The notes beneath the pieces are model-generated. The model was not told the origin of the DNA and did no database searches. It worked only from the letters and a program-made list of their open reading frames with translations. Shown here piece after piece: positions 1,938 to 38,384 of a stretch of DNA of 54,637 nucleotides. The stretch's first letter is position 1. Each line of letters starts with the position of its first letter. The position numbers were made by a program, and so were the translations under genes. This DNA is from Acidobacteriota bacterium (GTDB lineage Bacteria; Acidobacteriota; Terriglobia; Terriglobales; SCQP01), in the NCBI GenBank assembly GCA_027459505.1, contig DAIDIE010000034.1:1-54637 (forward strand). The letters run 5' to 3'.

Positions 1938-3953
1938 ATGAAATCAGTCGTTATCGGTACTGCTGGACACATCGATCACGGCAAGAGCGCCTTGGTGGAA
2001 GCGCTCACCGGCACCCACCCCGACCGGCTGGAAGAAGAGCGCCGCCGCGGCATTACCATAGACCTCGGTTTTGCCCATCTCACCCTCCCCGAAATTTCTG
2101 GACATCAGCCCCTCCGGCTGAGCTTTGTTGACGTGCCCGGGCATGAGCGCTTCGTTCGCAACATGCTGGCAGGCGTTGGTGGTATTGATCTCGTTCTGTT
2201 GGTGATTGCCGCCGATGAAGGCGTGAAGCCCCAGACCCGCGAGCATTTCGAGATTTGCCGGCTGTTGGGCATCCCGCGCGGGCTGATCGTACTATCCAAA
2301 ACCGATCTGGTCGAACCCGAATGGCTGCAGTTGGTGGAATCGGAAGTGCGTGAACTGGTACAAGGCTCGTTTCTGGAAAACGCCGCGGTGGTTCCGGTCA
2401 GCGCCCGCACCGGCGCCGGTATTGAGGTGCTGAAGAACGAGCTCCGTGTGCTTGCGGAACAGGTGCCTGGTCGCGATACAAAGCAGCCCTTCCGGCTCCC
2501 CATTGACCGCGCTTTTACTTTGAAAGGCTTTGGCACGGTCGTTACGGGCACACTGCTGCAGGGCGAAATGCAGCGCGAGCAGCCGCTTGACCTGCTGGGC
2601 TCATTGCAGGACGGAGGTTTTGCCCAACAGGAACGCCGGCATCCAGCATTGCCCGGAGGTTTGGAGCGTTCCCTCGCGCGGCCGCTGCGCTCGCGTGGCC
2701 TGCACGTCCATGGCGAAGCGACGCCGGTCGCGCGCGCCGGGCAGCGCACCGCGGTGAACCTCGCCGCCATTGAACCAGCCGAGATCCGCCGTGGCATGAC
2801 CCTGGCGCCTCCAGGCCTGTTCCGCTGCACGGTCCGCCTGGATGTCCGCTTGCAACTGCTGCCAGGCGCTCGTCCGCTGAAATCCTATTCGCGTCTGCGA
2901 CTCCATATCTACAGCCTGGATGTCACTGCCACGGTCGTTCTTCTGGAGGCCGACGTGCTCGCGCCCGGGGCATCGGCGCTCGCCCAGTTGCGTTTGCACG
3001 AGCCAGTGCTCGCGCTGCCCAACGACCGTTTTGTCCTGCGGCAGATCTCTCCCGCCGCTACGGTTGGTGGGGGCACCGTGCTGCGTGCGCTGGCGCGCCG
3101 CCCTCGCCAGCGCGAGAAAGCGGCCGCCAGCCTGCGCGATTGGGAACACGCGGGCTGGGAGGAGCGCGTCAGTGGCATGCTTGCCGAAGCGGGTGCCGAG
3201 GGCCTTGCCGAAGCCGACTTGATCGCCGCTACCGGCTTGGTGCCTGACTTCCTGCACTCTCTGCTAGAAGCGCTGCGGCGGCGTCAGGCCTGCTATGCGG
3301 CAGGGCAGAATCCACGGCTTTTTCTCCACGCCAACACCGTCCAGGAGCTCTCCGCCGCCTTGCTCGGAGCGCTGCATGCGTTTCACAGCGACAATCCTCT
3401 TTCTCCGGGCCCCGCCATCAGCGACCTGGAAGCGCGTACCGCGGCGGCCCTGCGGCTGCGGCCGGCGCCTTCCTGGCCGGTGGTGTTTCGCTTTGTCCTG
3501 CATGAACAAATCGAAGCCCGCAAGATCGAACAGGCTGGAGAGATCATCCGTGCAGCCGGACGCCAGCTCTCTCTCACGCCGGAAGAAGCCGCGGCGCGTG
3601 ACCGCATTGAGAGTGCTTTTCGCGATGCGGGACTGCGTGTTCCCCCCGTCCCGGAAGTACTCTCCGCCCTGCAACTCGATCAGCGCCGTGCCCAAAAGCT
3701 GCTGCAGCTCCTGCTGCGCGATCGCGTGCTGGTGCGGGTCAATGACGACTTGTTGTTTCATAGTTCTGCGCTGGATGCCTTGCGCACCCTTTTGCTGCGC
3801 CAGGCCAAACTAACGTCGCGCTTGAATGTCGCCGCGTTTAAGGAGCTAACCGGAGTCAGTAGAAAGTACGCGATTCCATTGCTGGAGCACCTGGACCGCT
3901 TGCGCTGGACACGGCGCGTCGCTGATGAACGCGAGATCCTGCTGCGCACCTGA
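1938..3953 (+). CDS. selB: Selenocysteine-specific translation elongation factor SelB
   Basis: GTPase that delivers Sec-tRNA to UGA codons bearing a SECIS hairpin. The G1 loop is GHIDHGKS (10-17), G3 is DVPGH (65-69) and G4 is SKTD (120-123). Domain 2 follows, and the C-terminal third consists of winged-helix modules that read the SECIS RNA. At 671 residues it is slightly longer than usual. Residues about 221-249, between LDLL and the [10 protein letters not shown] strand of domain 2, form an extra segment of roughly 24 residues coded by an imperfectly duplicated stretch (2602-2662). The reading frame stays open on both sides. No selA, selD or tRNA-Sec was found in the window, and no selenoprotein gene was recognised. 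The stop at 3951-3953 is followed at once by a fragment of the family 1 repeat. Confidence 0.93.
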
Positions 3954-3954
3954 T

Positions 3955-3973
3955 GGAGACGAGGCCGTGCCTC
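3955..3973 (+). repeat. Family 1 repeat fragment (terminal hairpin only)
   Basis: Nineteen bases identical to the 3' end of the family 1 element, including the hairpin GAGGC-CGT-GCCTC (3961-3973), start one base after the selB stop codon. There is no T-run, so it is not a canonical intrinsic terminator, though it may protect the 3' end of the mRNA. It may be the relic of a decayed full copy. Confidence 0.7.
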
Positions 3974-4030
3974 GGCAAGGCTGGCGACAAAGGTTCGGGG
4001 GTGCCCTTTAGGGCCCACGCCCGCGGTTTG

Positions 4031-4083
4031 GGGCGGGGCCGCACACCGTAGCGGGTGGAATAAAAGCGGCGGCCGTGCCGCCT
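4031..4083 (+). repeat. Dispersed repeat, family 2, copy 1
   Basis: Shares the core GCGGGTGGAATAAAAGCGG with 31891-31940 and, less exactly, 14109-14145. It ends with the hairpin GGCGGC-CGT-GCCGCC, whose GGCCGTGCC centre is the same as in the terminal hairpin of the family 1 repeat. The hairpin finishes only 7 nt before the pcm start codon, so it could influence translation initiation of pcm; that is inference. Confidence 0.65.
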
Positions 4084-4090
4084 TGAGCTT

Positions 4091-4762
4091 ATGTTTCGCT
4101 GGCTTCCATTTCGCCGCCCTTGGTCCTCAGCCGCCCCCGCCAGCCGGCAAGGCATGCTGGAATTGCTGCGGCGGCAGGGAATCCGTGATGAGCGTGTGCT
4201 TAGAGCAATGGCGCGCGTCCCGCGTCATTGCTTCGTGCCTGAGGCGCTGCAGCCCTTGGCCTACGCCGACCAGGCCCTGGAACTGTCGTCCTGTGCCACG
4301 ATTTCGCAGCCCTACATGGTCGCCCGCATGACCGAAGCGGCCAGCCTGTCGCCCGCAGACCGCGTCCTGGAGGTCGGCACCGGCAGCGGTTATCAGGCCG
4401 CGCTCCTGGCCGAACTGGCGCAACAGGTCTTTACCGTCGAACTGGATCCTGATCTGGCCGTTGCCGCCGCGGCAACGCTGCGCCAGTTGGGCTATGCGCA
4501 CCGGGTTCAGCTCTTAGCGGGAGATGGCAATCGCGGCTGGCCCGAGTTCGCACCCTTTCAGGCTATCCTTGTGACCGCCGCCGCCCCTACTTTCCCCCGC
4601 ACTTTATTTGAACAACTCGCCGAAGGCGGCCGCCTCATTTTCCCGGAAGCCGCTGCCGGCCAGTCCTGCAGCCATCGCCTGTATAAAGTGGAGCGCCAGC
4701 ATGGCCAGCCTCGTACCAGCTTGCTTGGCTACTGCCGGTTTGTACCGCTGCGCAGCGCTTGA
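4091..4762 (+). CDS. pcm: Protein-L-isoaspartate O-methyltransferase
   Basis: SAM-dependent repair enzyme that methylates isoaspartyl residues in aged proteins. At 223 residues it is close to the family norm (about 210-220). Key motifs are the substrate-binding TISQPYMVARM (70-80), the SAM motif I VLEVGTGSGYQ (92-102), an acidic residue after strand 2 (TVELD) and a GDGNRGW loop. The N-terminal 20 residues are basic and probably not part of the fold. The start at 4091 gives the whole conserved domain; the ribosome-binding site is weak and lies beside a repeat hairpin. It stands alone between selB and a family 1 repeat, without the surE or rpoS neighbours known from proteobacteria. Confidence 0.92.
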   Translation: MFRWLPFRRPWSSAAPASRQGMLELLRRQGIRDERVLRAMARVPRHCFVPEALQPLAYADQALELSSCATISQPYMVARMTEAASLSPADRVLEVGTGSGYQAALLAELAQQVFTVELDPDLAVAAAATLRQLGYAHRVQLLAGDGNRGWPEFAPFQAILVTAAAPTFPRTLFEQLAEGGRLIFPEAAAGQSCSHRLYKVERQHGQPRTSLLGYCRFVPLRSA

Positions 4763-4793
4763 CGGCCAAATATCTCCCGGGCGAGAGCCCTCC

Positions 4794-5026
4794 CTAGGAG
4801 CGAGCCACCGAGTTCTCCCTGCGGGAGGAGATCCTCGCGCAGCAACGGCAGACGACGCCGTTGCTGGGGCCCGTCGCAGGTGGAGGGCCGCGAAATTCCG
4901 AAGGGCGGACCCCTCGCGCGGGAGAGGAGCCCGGCATCGGCGGCTTCACGTTCTCACTGGAGAACGTGCCAGCGACCCAACGGAAAGCAATGCCAGCGGG
5001 CGGCTCAGGAGACGAGGCCGTGCCTC
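4794..5026 (+). repeat. Dispersed structured repeat, family 1, copy 2 (with inserted hairpin)
   Basis: Full-length copy beginning at CTAGGAGCGAGCCACCGAG and ending in GAGGC-CGT-GCCTC. Relative to the other copies it carries about 45 extra bases near 4833-4875, after the first CTCCC-TGC-GGGAG hairpin. The extra segment is itself a perfect stem, CAGCAACGGC-AGACGAC-GCCGTTGCTG. It fills most of the interval between pcm and the next gene, in the same orientation as both. The ACTG-loop hairpin (4947-4968) is perfect. Confidence 0.9.
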
Positions 5027-5162
5027 CCTCGCTTTTTCCCCCTCTCTGCGGCCAGTGACAACCTCTGCCTTCCCACCGGCTTCCTAACTTTGGAAAAACC
5101 CGTGCACTCAGCAGCACTGCCGCTGCGGCCGGGTTCGCGAGTTGTCTCGCAGGAGGGTCACA

Positions 5163-5888
5163 GTGGCTTCACATGCAACCAGGGATCACGAAGAAATTCG
5201 CAATTGGGCGGAACAACATGGCGCCTGCCCCACCGTGGTGAGCCGCACCGGCGGCATGTTGCGCTTCGAGTTCAACCCGCAGGACTCGGGAGATACACTG
5301 CAAGGAATCAATTGGGATGATTTCTTTCAGGTGTTTGATGAGAAAGGATTGGAACTGCTCTACGACGACAAGCCGGGAAGCCGGTTTCACAAGTTCGTCT
5401 ACCCGGAAACCATTGAGGCCAAGGCCGAGCACAAGCCGCCTGCCCGCCCGGCTCGGTCGCGTCTGCGGATGGACATTCCGGAAGCAGAACGCTCCGGCGG
5501 AAGCAAACGCGCCGCGTCCGGTTCCCGGGCCAAATCCACTGCCGGAACCGCAAGTGGCCGGACTACTCGCGCCGTAGGTGCGCGTGCCGGCGCCAGTTCC
5601 AAAGGGCGCGAAAAGCAAGCCTATGCGCTGCCCAAGCGCGGCGCCGGTACCTCCGCACGTTCTTCTCGTTCCTCCAATTCGCAGGGCGGCCATTCCGTCA
5701 ACGCGGTGAGCCGCACCCGTGCCACGGCGGCCACCGGACGCACTAGCGCTGGCCGAAGCACCACGGCCGGGGCTAACAAAACCACCGCCCGCGGCAAGAC
5801 CAATGCACCCGCCAAGACGGCCGGAAAGGCCCATGGCGTCTCCGGCCGCGCCAGCCGCACCGGTAGCCGTGGCCGCAAGGCCGCTTAA
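5163..5888 (+). CDS. Small N-terminal domain with long basic disordered tail
   Basis: No characterised function. GTG at 5163 is chosen because AGGAGG (5151-5156) lies 6 nt upstream; the more upstream TTG at 5142 would place this site inside the gene. The 241-residue protein has an ordered N-terminal part (about 1-85). It begins ASHATRDHEEIRNWAEQHG and contains INWDDFFQVFDEKGLELLYDD, a pattern I associate with a widespread small uncharacterised family sometimes misnamed glucan branching enzyme. The remaining 150 residues are almost only Ala, Gly, Ser, Thr, Lys and Arg, resembling histone-H1-like or AlgP-like tails. A DNA- or RNA-associated role is plausible from composition only. A strong terminator follows at once. 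Confidence 0.8.
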   Translation: MASHATRDHEEIRNWAEQHGACPTVVSRTGGMLRFEFNPQDSGDTLQGINWDDFFQVFDEKGLELLYDDKPGSRFHKFVYPETIEAKAEHKPPARPARSRLRMDIPEAERSGGSKRAASGSRAKSTAGTASGRTTRAVGARAGASSKGREKQAYALPKRGAGTSARSSRSSNSQGGHSVNAVSRTRATAATGRTSAGRSTTAGANKTTARGKTNAPAKTAGKAHGVSGRASRTGSRGRKAA

Positions 5889-7623: not shown

Positions 7624-8730
7624 ATGCCCATGTCCCAAGGTCGAGAAAACATTCTCGGAATCGAGCTCAGCACCCTGCGTGATCAGATGACGGCTCAGGG
7701 CTTTCCCCCGTTCCGTGCTGATCAACTTTTTCGAGCCGTGCAGCGCAAACATGTTCCCGCATGGGACCACGTCCACACCTTGCCGCTGCCACTCCGCACC
7801 CGTGCCGGCGCCCAGTGGGGCCTGTCCTGGCCGCTCATCGAGCAGCGCTTTGTTTCGCTAGACGGTACAGTGCGATATCTGTTGCGTCTGCACGACGGAG
7901 AGACGGTGGAAGCCGTCTACCTCCCGGAGGAAGTGTTCGACGCCGAAGGCGAACGCATTCGCCACCGCTACACCTTTTGTATTTCCACGCAGGCGGGCTG
8001 CCCCGTCAATTGCCAGTTCTGCATGACCGCCCTGCTGGGACTCAAGCGCAGCCTGGAAGCCGGTGAAATCGTCGGCCAGGTGCTGACCTTAATGCGGGAG
8101 CATGGCCTGCGCGCTGGCGACGCCGGCGCCCACAAAGTGAACCTGGTCTACATGGGCATGGGCGAGCCCTTCCTCAATTACGATAACGTCCTGCGCTCGG
8201 TGCGGATATTGACTACGCCAGAGGGCGCGGCCCTGTCGCCCCGCCGGATCACCATTTCCACGTCGGGGATTATTGACAAGATTGTGCGCTTTGGAACCGA
8301 GCCCAACCGTCCCCATCTGGCCATTTCTTTGAACGCGACTACCGACGAAATGCGCCAGCGTATCATGCCGCTCAATAGGGGTCAGGGAGGGCTGCAGCGG
8401 CTGCTGCGGACAGCGCGCGCATTTCCCCTGCGCGAACGGGAGCGATTGACCTTTGAATATGTGCTGTTGGCTGGTGTCAATGACAGCCTCGAGGATGCTG
8501 CCCGCATTGTTGACCTCACCCGCGGCATACGCTGTAAGGTGAACCTGATTGCCTGGAACATGGGTCCCGAGCGGCCGTTTCAGAGTCCAGACGCCGACCA
8601 GGTGGATCGCTTTCAGCACGCGCTCACGCAGGCTGGCGTTCCCGCCTTCATCCGCCGTCCACGCGGCCGCGATATCTATGCCGCCTGCGGCCAGCTCAAG
8701 CGCACTGCTGCTGATGGACAGCAACCCTAG
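7624..8730 (+). CDS. rlmN: Dual-specificity 23S rRNA A2503 / tRNA A37 C2-methyltransferase
   Basis: Radical-SAM enzyme that methylates C2 of adenine 2503 in 23S rRNA and of A37 in some tRNAs. At 368 residues it has the standard length. The SAM-cluster cysteines are C126, C130 and C133 (GCPVNCQFC). The two mechanistic cysteines are also present, C119 (FCIST) and C355 (YAACGQL), so it is a methyl synthase and complete. There is a second in-frame ATG two codons in. The stop codon TAG (8728-8730) lies inside the CTAG that begins a family 1 repeat, so that insertion or its boundary defines the present C-terminus. Confidence 0.95.
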   Translation: MPMSQGRENILGIELSTLRDQMTAQGFPPFRADQLFRAVQRKHVPAWDHVHTLPLPLRTRAGAQWGLSWPLIEQRFVSLDGTVRYLLRLHDGETVEAVYLPEEVFDAEGERIRHRYTFCISTQAGCPVNCQFCMTALLGLKRSLEAGEIVGQVLTLMREHGLRAGDAGAHKVNLVYMGMGEPFLNYDNVLRSVRILTTPEGAALSPRRITISTSGIIDKIVRFGTEPNRPHLAISLNATTDEMRQRIMPLNRGQGGLQRLLRTARAFPLRERERLTFEYVLLAGVNDSLEDAARIVDLTRGIRCKVNLIAWNMGPERPFQSPDADQVDRFQHALTQAGVPAFIRRPRGRDIYAACGQLKRTAADGQQP

Positions 8731-8921
8731 CGAGCCACCGAGTCCTCCCTGTGGAAGAGATCGCCGGAGGAGATCGCAGGTGGAGGGCCGCGAAATTGCG
8801 AAGGGCGGCCCCGCCGGAGAGGAGCCCGGCATCGGCGGATTCACAGTCTCACTGGAGAACGTGCCAGCGACCCAACGGAAAGCAATGCCGGCGGGCAGCT
8901 CAGGAGACGAGGCCGTGCCTC
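8727..8921 (+). repeat. Dispersed structured repeat, family 1, copy 3
   Basis: This copy starts with CTAG overlapping the rlmN stop codon and ends with GTGCCTC, whose last base is the first base of the convergent gene's stop codon (8921-8923). It therefore makes up the whole intergenic interval. It has the perfect second hairpin GGGCCGC/GCGGCCC around 8785-8813 and a partly decayed third hairpin (CACAGTCTC against GAGAACGTG). A short internal duplication of GGAGGAGATCGC-like sequence is seen near 8760-8780. Confidence 0.9.
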
Positions 8922-13934: not shown

Positions 13935-14266
13935 CGATTTATCTCCCGGAGTGAACTAAATGCCTAACCTTAATCACTGAGCGTGAACTGCGGGCGCTTC
14001 GCAGGCGGTTCCGATTTGAAACCCCGGCGGCTTCCTGTGGGCGGGTTCACCCATCTCGGGCGACCAGAAAAGCCCGGCAATCATTTGTGAGCTTCGGACT
14101 GTGAGCTTCGACCGGACGCCGAAGCGGGTGGAATAAAGGCGGACCGCACAAATGGGGAGAGCCGCGGGGACTACACCCGCTCAGAGTAGATGCTCGCCGG
14201 GTCGCCAAGTGCTGCCTGGCGGCTAACCTCCGCAGCGTCGTCAAAGATCGTGATTGCTGCGGAAGT
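13935..14266. other. Intergenic region with family 2 repeat
   Basis: No gene is supported between the small membrane frame and the gene ending at 14267. The interval contains the degenerate family 2 repeat and a short direct repeat of TGAGCTTCG (about 14089 and 14102). Open frames here look like chance frames in GC-rich DNA. Confidence 0.5.
14109..14145 (+). repeat. Dispersed repeat, family 2, copy 2 (degenerate)
   Basis: Contains GACGCCGAAGCGGGTGGAATAAA, closely matching the core of the copies at 4031-4083 and 31891-31940, but its 3' end (GGCGGACCGCAC) has lost the GGCCGTGCC hairpin. Confidence 0.55.
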
Positions 14267-20051: not shown

Positions 20052-20244
20052 AGGGAATGCTTCAGGATAGCAGGAGCGCGCAAAGGGGCAGTTTGCAGAT
20101 TGAACCTTGGCCCTTGTCCCGGACGTCGGCTGTCATTACCGCTGGCTCAGCGTCAAAGCCCTGCCGTGTTCCCCTTCCGCGCCGCCTGCTTGCCGGCCAC
20201 CGGCCATCCCTCCGGGGCCGCCCGCACATCGCCAACTGGCCACG

Positions 20245-20426
20245 CTAGGAGCGAGCCACCGAGTCCTCCCTGCGGGAGGAGATCGCAGGTGGAGGGCCGC
20301 GAAATTCCGAAGGGAGGCCCCTTCGCGCGGGAGAGGAGCCCGGCATCGGTGGCTTCACGTTCTCACTGGAGAACGTGCCAGCGACCAACGGGAGCGGGCG
20401 GTCTGAAGGAAACGAGGCCGTGCCTC
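20245..20426 (+). repeat. Dispersed structured repeat, family 1, copy 4 (best full-length copy)
   Basis: Complete element of 182 bp from CTAGGAGCGAG to GTGCCTC. Four hairpins can be drawn: CTCCC-TGC-GGGAG; GGGCCGC against GAGGCCC with one mismatch; the perfect CACGTTCTC-ACTG-GAGAACGTG; and GAGGC-CGT-GCCTC. Copies 1, 2 and 5 agree with it over most positions. Confidence 0.92.
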
Positions 20427-31662: not shown

Positions 31663-31998
31663 AACAGTACCTCCCGGGTGCATTCAGCATAGTAGGACAG
31701 CGCAGGCTCAGTCACAAGTGTTAATGAATAGTCTTTTTGAAGGCCTTTCGAGGTTCAAAGAGCGTGGTTAGAGGCATCAGCTTGCCAACGCGAGGCCTTC
31801 TGCAGTGAACCAGAGGAGGGCCGCGAAATTACTTCCCGGCCTCCGGCAAACTACAGTTGACTTGATCCCCGAGCCGCGCCGCGCGGCTTGGAGCGGGGCC
31901 GGACACCGAAGCGGGTGGAATAAAAGCGGCCGTGCCGCCGGCCCCTTCGCCCCGTACAATAAAACTAGAAACTGCCCGCGGAGAGGATCAGTCCTTTT
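31663..31998. other. Divergent region between the DUF3857 gene and tldD
   Basis: No gene is supported. It includes a 15-base relic of the family 1 element (GAGGGCCGCGAAATT, 31816-31830) and the family 2 repeat at 31891-31940. GTACAATAAAACTAG near 31957-31971 is an A/T-rich patch that could hold the tldD promoter. Confidence 0.45.
31891..31940 (+). repeat. Dispersed repeat, family 2, copy 3
   Basis: Shares GGACACCGAAGCGGGTGGAATAAAAGCGG with the other copies and ends in the hairpin GCGGC-CGT-GCCGC. It lies 59 bp upstream of the tldD start, in the same orientation as at pcm. Confidence 0.65.
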
Positions 31999-38202: not shown

Positions 38203-38384
38203 GAGGCACGGCCTCGTCTCCTTCAGGCCGCACGCTCCCGTTGGTCGCTGGCACGTTCTCCAGTGAGACCGTGAAGCCGCCGATGCCGGGCTCCTCTCCC
38301 GCGCGAGGGAGCCGCCCTTCGGAATTTCGCGGCCCTCCACCTGCGATTTCCTCCCACAGGGAGGACTCGGTGGCTCGCTCCTAG
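38203..38384 (-). repeat. Dispersed structured repeat, family 1, copy 5 (inverted)
   Basis: The only copy on the minus strand: GAGGC-ACG-GCCTC at its low-coordinate end and CTAG at 38381-38384. The third hairpin has one mismatch (CACGGTCTC against GAGAACGTG). As with copy 3 it lies between convergent genes (stops at 38183 and 38443). Confidence 0.92.

Follow-up and report, generated by a model that had tools for sequence, protein, structure and literature searches.

Folded intergenic elements inserted three nucleotides downstream of a cytosine in the genome of an uncultured acidobacterium

Two families of folded elements dispersed through the genome of an uncultured member of the Acidobacteriota are mobile DNA that inserts three nucleotides downstream of a cytosine (CNNN^) without duplicating its target. 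The first family, F1, was recognized in the window, the whole 54,637-nucleotide stretch of DNA analysed here, which is one contig (C18) of a 4.06 Mb draft genome in 45 contigs (hereafter G000). A first-pass annotation had placed five copies there, and all five were recovered, at a similarity well above chance, with BLAST E-values down to 1e-79 in a search inside the window. Two are complete and belong to a short, 182-bp subtype: one at 20247–20426 on the plus strand (first placed from 20245), and one at 38203–38382 on the minus strand (first placed to 38384). Two more, both on the plus strand, carry the 3′ domain of a 189-bp type: the copy at 8729–8921 (first placed from 8727) has a small duplication in P2b and degenerate first bases, and the copy at 4796–5026 (first placed from 4794) is 231 bp long, its P2 internal loop holding an additional hairpin module (CAGCAACGGC...GCCGTTGCTG). 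The fifth (1–140, plus) is cut by the contig start and covers model positions 41–180, and a separate fragment of an F1 3′ end (GGAGACGAGGCCGTGCCTC) lies at 3950–3973 (plus).

The family is abundant throughout the sampled genome. An nhmmer profile counted 128 F1 members in 1.91 Mb (47%) of G000, sampled in stretches that include C24 and most of C14 and C8 as unbroken runs; many other stretches were chosen for holding matches, so that the resulting density of 67 copies per Mb leans high. The whole 4.06 Mb genome would hold roughly 200 copies or more, and the initial estimate of hundreds per genome was about right. A 17-base pattern from the F1 5′ end matched 122 times in G000, against 2 for a reversed control, and a first look gave at least 41 matches, with 40 of 189 candidates scored. 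Placement between genes, which had been claimed for every copy, holds within the window and for most copies genome-wide: 8 of 115 copies lie mostly inside gene calls (which come from a simple script based on hexamers and not from a standard gene caller), although coding calls cover 83% of the sampled DNA. Contigs C6, C10, C18, C24, C25, C26, C27, C28, C34, C35, C37 and C38 of G000 start or end within an F1 element, and so many contig ends inside F1 indicate that the assembly breaks at these repeats. On C6 (L036, 2083–2491), two F1 copies lie 43 bp apart, and a stretch of flank, CGAAATGAGCATGAACGG, is duplicated around the first.

The second dispersed family, F2, came to light in a search for empty insertion sites and numbers about 106 elements in the same 1.91 Mb sample. 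F2 differs from F1 in sequence, with a related 5′ motif (GAGCC..GCCGAGTC-hairpin-AATCGCAGG) and a terminal hairpin, GCGGC-CGT-GCCGC, of the same kind; G occupies position +1 in only 1 of 74. Four F2 fragments, absent from the first-pass annotation, are present on the plus strand of the window: a 5′ and middle part at 1821–1932, a 3′ part ending near GCGGCCGTGCCGC at 3988–4085, a fragment at 14045–14142 and a 3′ end (GGTGGAATAAAAGCGGCCGTGCCGC) at 31897–31939. G006, from a different genus, carries hundreds of candidate F2-type copies, which end in GCGGCCGAGCCGC or GCGGCCGTGCCGC, and elements of a further type, g3, run on past GCTGGGGCCCGCGCC for about seven bases, with CRAY, to their end. DNA matches to F1 were confined to the same family-level lineage: 8 of 41 genomes had them, G000 included, whereas the 27 from the sister family gave none. 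A search of 84,980 species genomes for the 25-base core of P3 gave 16 stretches, all from Acidobacteriota metagenome-assembled genomes, and an IMG/VR scan found it in no viral contig.

The boundaries of F1 are sharp. An alignment of copies places AGGAGCGAGCCACCGAG at the 5′ end and GAGGCCGTGCCTC at the 3′ end, with unrelated sequence outside. The CTAG originally taken as the start owes its CT to the flank and is not conserved. Copies begin instead with AGGAGCGAGCC, which is conserved; the three flank bases before it vary, and the C ahead of those is again conserved (C-NNN). The complete plus-strand copy has its target C at 20243, followed by GCT and then AGGAGCGAGCC. The other end had been assigned correctly to the terminal hairpin GAGGC-CGT-GCCTC (20414–20426, plus), and the stems named along with it are present. 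C stands at −4 in 56 of 56 F1 copies with intact ends, positions −3 to −1 being nearly free, and in 78 of 81 F1 junctions when looser ends are admitted (p = 6e-36). The same rule governs F2 (63 of 69 junctions, p = 1e-25) and g3-type starts (C-NNN spacing in 13 of 13); in flanks read by eye, all 19 copies in genome G013 have the C at a spacing of 3–4, and most copies in G006 share the same C spacing. The NNN bases correlate with other flank positions no more than 936 tests would give. The last four bases of the element itself also start with C: CCTC in F1 and G013, CCGC in F2 and G006 and perhaps CRAY in the g3 type.

Insertion leaves no duplication of the target. Matches between the two flanks of F1 copies equal those of shuffled pairs (mean 3.34 versus 3.39), and three paralogous empty sites show C-NNN already in the target before insertion, again with no duplication: ...GATTCCAG|CGCG versus ...GATTCCAACGCG, ...CTCCTG|CTGAAC versus ...CTCATCCTGAAC and ...GGGCCGA|CTGA versus GGGCCGAGTCGAACTGC. 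In two of these the insertion is clean; in the third, 6 bp are missing. That the elements are mobile, as the first-pass annotation had supposed, is supported by abrupt ends between flanks that share nothing, a target base that hardly varies, paralogous sites that stand empty and the many near-identical copies.

F1, F2 and their relatives in other genera of the same family-level lineage share an architecture of a 5′ domain and a 3′ domain, completed in most families by a terminal hairpin. The F1-type 5′ domain, or domain 1, is a three-way junction of P1, P2 and P3 in which P2 bears an inner hairpin; in the copy at 20247–20426 it extends approximately over 20251–20324 (plus), as read from the sequence with comparative support. 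P1 of this copy is GCGAG, which pairs with CTCGC in the consensus, P2 is CCACC/GGTGG with inner hairpin CCTCC/GGAGG, and P3 is GGGCCGC-GAAATTCCGNAGG-GCGGCCC, with a loop (GAAATTCCGNAGG) that is nearly invariant among F1-type elements. It is the 3′ domain that separates the two F1 subtypes (about 182 and 189 bp), and longer copies have additional hairpins in the loop of either P2 or P3. A smaller module, a REP-like hairpin of the form CCGGGGYCCCC...GGGGTGG, is nested in the loops of many elements; it frequently takes up one and the same place in the P3 loop, is sometimes in tandem, and occurs both in G013 (L067, L068, L069 and L071) and in other genera (L080, L082 and L087). In elements of G006 (L182 and L198) a short palindromic module, GCAATTCCGCAGGAATTGC, is repeated several times in tandem, resembling the variable modules of BOX elements.

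Comparison across genera supports this fold. From 13 representative sequences aligned by MAFFT without structure, RNAalifold returned P1, P2 and P3, with 5 of 13 pairs changed on both sides (for example, GC in 8 and CG in 5, or AU in 6 and GC in 6); base-pair covariation across divergent members is present for domain 1 in this structure-blind alignment, and covariation between genera is seen in the helices P1 and P2. Double changes were more numerous in a count parsed by hand, which leans to the structure because the parsing was done by eye. Among 107 copies within G000, by contrast, 9 compensatory cells compare with 102 G-T, 72 A-C and 132 other non-pairs. Compensation of stem changes among copies, as initially described, is therefore rare in this genome, and the conserved fold proposed at the same time is borne out by covariation between genera and not by the changes among G000 copies. 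A conserved multi-stem fold with covariation is common to these elements and to Rfam structured RNAs, and no Rfam family matches: nothing reached the gathering threshold for F1, its relatives or F2, only a tRNA matched in the window, and the known motifs, acidobacterial ones included, that had been flagged as possible identities can be set aside. A lead to the DUF3800-VI motif (22 bits on one relative, against a gathering score of 35) reflected GC stems only and was rejected; a search of G000 found no DUF3800 gene.

The elements are oriented coherently along contigs. Neighbouring F1 elements share an orientation by 84 to 9 (p = 1e-16), F1–F2 neighbours within 30 kb do so by 71 to 14 (71 of 85), and matches in G006 have a single orientation per contig. 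Gene direction had no effect on F1 orientation or position (36, 21, 19 and 17 copies in the four flanking arrangements), and neither gene strand share nor GGGNAGGG polarity correlated with element orientation. Orientation follows strand composition: at third codon positions, balanced over gene strands and tested with one value per contig piece, the F1 top strand is richer in C than G (GC skew, p = 0.001) and in T than A (TA skew, p = 0.0008), and skew on the F2 top strand was also significant (GC, p = 0.005; TA, p = 0.014). If the usual leading-strand conventions hold, the GC and TA skews imply opposite replication strands. On contig C39, GC skew changes at approximately 95 kb, and close by, between approximately 102 and 134 kb, element orientation reverses. 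On C8, which holds dnaA, GC skew switches at the putative origin but element orientation does not, so the link to replication is statistical, with origin and terminus placed on these draft contigs from skew and dnaA only. A search for a dif site gave no match, and highly expressed genes, sought as a leading-strand marker with approximate query sequences, were too few in the sample. Because orientation is coherent along contigs and follows strand composition, insertion is probably replication-polarized.

The reading that we favour, and to which we give about an even chance, is that F1 and F2, as non-autonomous mobile DNA, move in the form of a folded single strand, served in trans by an enzyme, into CNNN targets on the strand exposed at the fork. 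The trans-acting enzyme, which we infer to be HUH-like, would recognize the fold on one strand, in F1-type elements by means of the three-way junction with its nearly invariant P3 loop together with the terminal hairpin. It would cut after the CNNN tetranucleotide at the right end of the element and join the excised strand to a target immediately 3′ of its CNNN, leaving the target unduplicated. Replication would set the polarity, in that a single strand exposed at the replication fork would leave regional copies pointing the same way. No autonomous copy was found among the sampled elements, and no mobilizing gene was identified among the candidates examined (Y1, RT, DUF3800 and IS110). One split pair of element halves, on C24 (70.6–72.7 kb), was rejected as an autonomous copy; the enclosed genes lie on the opposite strand and read as those of an ordinary MoxR-like ATPase and of a small protein resembling pterin dehydratase.

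Mobility through RNA, with a folded transcript copied into DNA at forks in the manner of endonuclease-less group II introns, is unlikely. Replication-polarized insertion is known for such introns, the three-way junction with its nearly invariant P3 loop is RNA-like, and top-strand mismatches favour G-T over A-C (102:72 in G000 and 29:13 in G013, in cells that are not independent). However, a reverse transcriptase (RVT_1) occurs in only 2 of 13 family genomes, G000 and G006, as two unrelated proteins, many element-bearing genomes have none, and we rejected it as the mobilizer. The G000 protein, a lone 701-aa RT-domain protein near 90.9 kb of C39 (L157, 253–2358, minus), lies close to a GC-skew switch and is perhaps a defence-type RT, and that of G006 (C28; L156, 220–2316, minus) reads as an RT–Cas1 fusion next to a Cas6-like ORF. 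Nor do the copies form a series of 5′ truncations, the majority of those away from contig ends being full length.

We think it just as improbable that these are REP/REPIN-type elements mobilized by the RAYT (TnpA-REP) proteins of the genome. Strand-specific hairpin recognition and intergenic dispersal would fit, and a Y1 transposase (Y1_Tnp, PF01797) is found in 7 of 8 genomes with F1-like elements, compared with 1 of 5 tested without them; G000 has two such genes. Yet all 13 Y1_Tnp loci inspected lie beside REP-type or other repeats, or beside none, and never beside an F1-type element. Furthermore, no Y1_Tnp was found in G006, which is so rich in F2-type elements, and the GTAG tag is absent. 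RAYT was accordingly set aside as the mobilizer.

A site-specific recombinase, whether a tyrosine or serine enzyme that uses a variable coupling sequence (Tn916 is an example) or one guided by a bridge RNA in the manner of IS110, is very doubtful. Such an enzyme could explain the lack of terminal inverted repeats and of target duplication, and an IS110-family transposase gene does occur inside one element (C22; L119, 4122–5803; gene at 4557–5567, minus). That gene, however, has inserted in a REP-like hairpin nested in the F1 P3 loop and reads as a passenger, for which reason the C22 split pair was rejected as an autonomous copy; the empty sites place NNN in the target and not in the element, unlike coupling sequences, and orientation polarity is unexpected for double-strand recombination. 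It is similarly doubtful that the elements are functional RNA or DNA-structure sites under selection (serving, for example, the nucleoid or mRNA stability) whose mobility is incidental, a reading that suits their intergenic location and cross-genus fold but not their lack of preferred position relative to genes, their detection in one family-level lineage only or the decay of copies with few compensatory changes.

Compared with known systems, F1 and F2 are best read as working most like IS200/IS605 derivatives or REPINs, yet they fail the defining features of REPs and of MITEs, the two classes to which F1 had first been likened. Short, non-autonomous and high in copy number as MITEs are, they are not MITE-like in the strict sense: target-site duplication is missing, and the ends of intact F1 copies are not inverted repeats, AGGAGCGAGCC having no match to the complement of the other end, GAGGCACGGCC. 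With REPs and REPINs served by RAYT they share the character of high-copy, intergenic, non-autonomous hairpin elements with strand-specific handling. REPs, however, are palindromes of 20–50 nt after a tetranucleotide, most often GTAG (PMC8266576), whereas the elements here are 180–190 bp long and multi-helix, with a three-way junction and ends AGGAGCGAGCC... and ...GAGGCCGTGCCTC, carry no GTAG tag and adjoin none of the RAYT genes examined, so that the label REP-like fails in its strict sense too. IS200/IS605 elements target the lagging-strand template (PMC6006769), and the likeness to them extends to the lack of inverted terminal repeats and of duplication, insertion 3′ of a short target, structured ends and, probably, strand polarity. 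They differ in having specific tetra- or pentanucleotide targets, whereas only the first target base is fixed here; a three-way junction is conserved here, and no tnpA with these ends was found.

BOX, ERIC/IRU and RU-type dispersed repeats are likewise folded, intergenic and 120–200 bp long (for RU sizes, PMC2759123). BOX elements also have optional extra modules. The elements described here are set apart from these repeats by the exact C-NNN rule and regional orientation coherence. Open-licence papers on such repeats yielded no description of the present elements. We propose, only tentatively, that they represent an undescribed class of modular three-way-junction elements, distributed through one family-level lineage of uncultured Acidobacteriota, in which a folded single strand would insert 3 nt past a cytosine at replication forks by means of an enzyme other than a known REP transposase.

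With hundreds of copies, an exact target rule and two diverged families in one genome, the elements provide a countable record of strand-polarized insertion. The enzyme, if found, would be one that inserts DNA under the guidance of structure and requires very little of its target, and the elements may serve to mark replication polarity in draft genomes.
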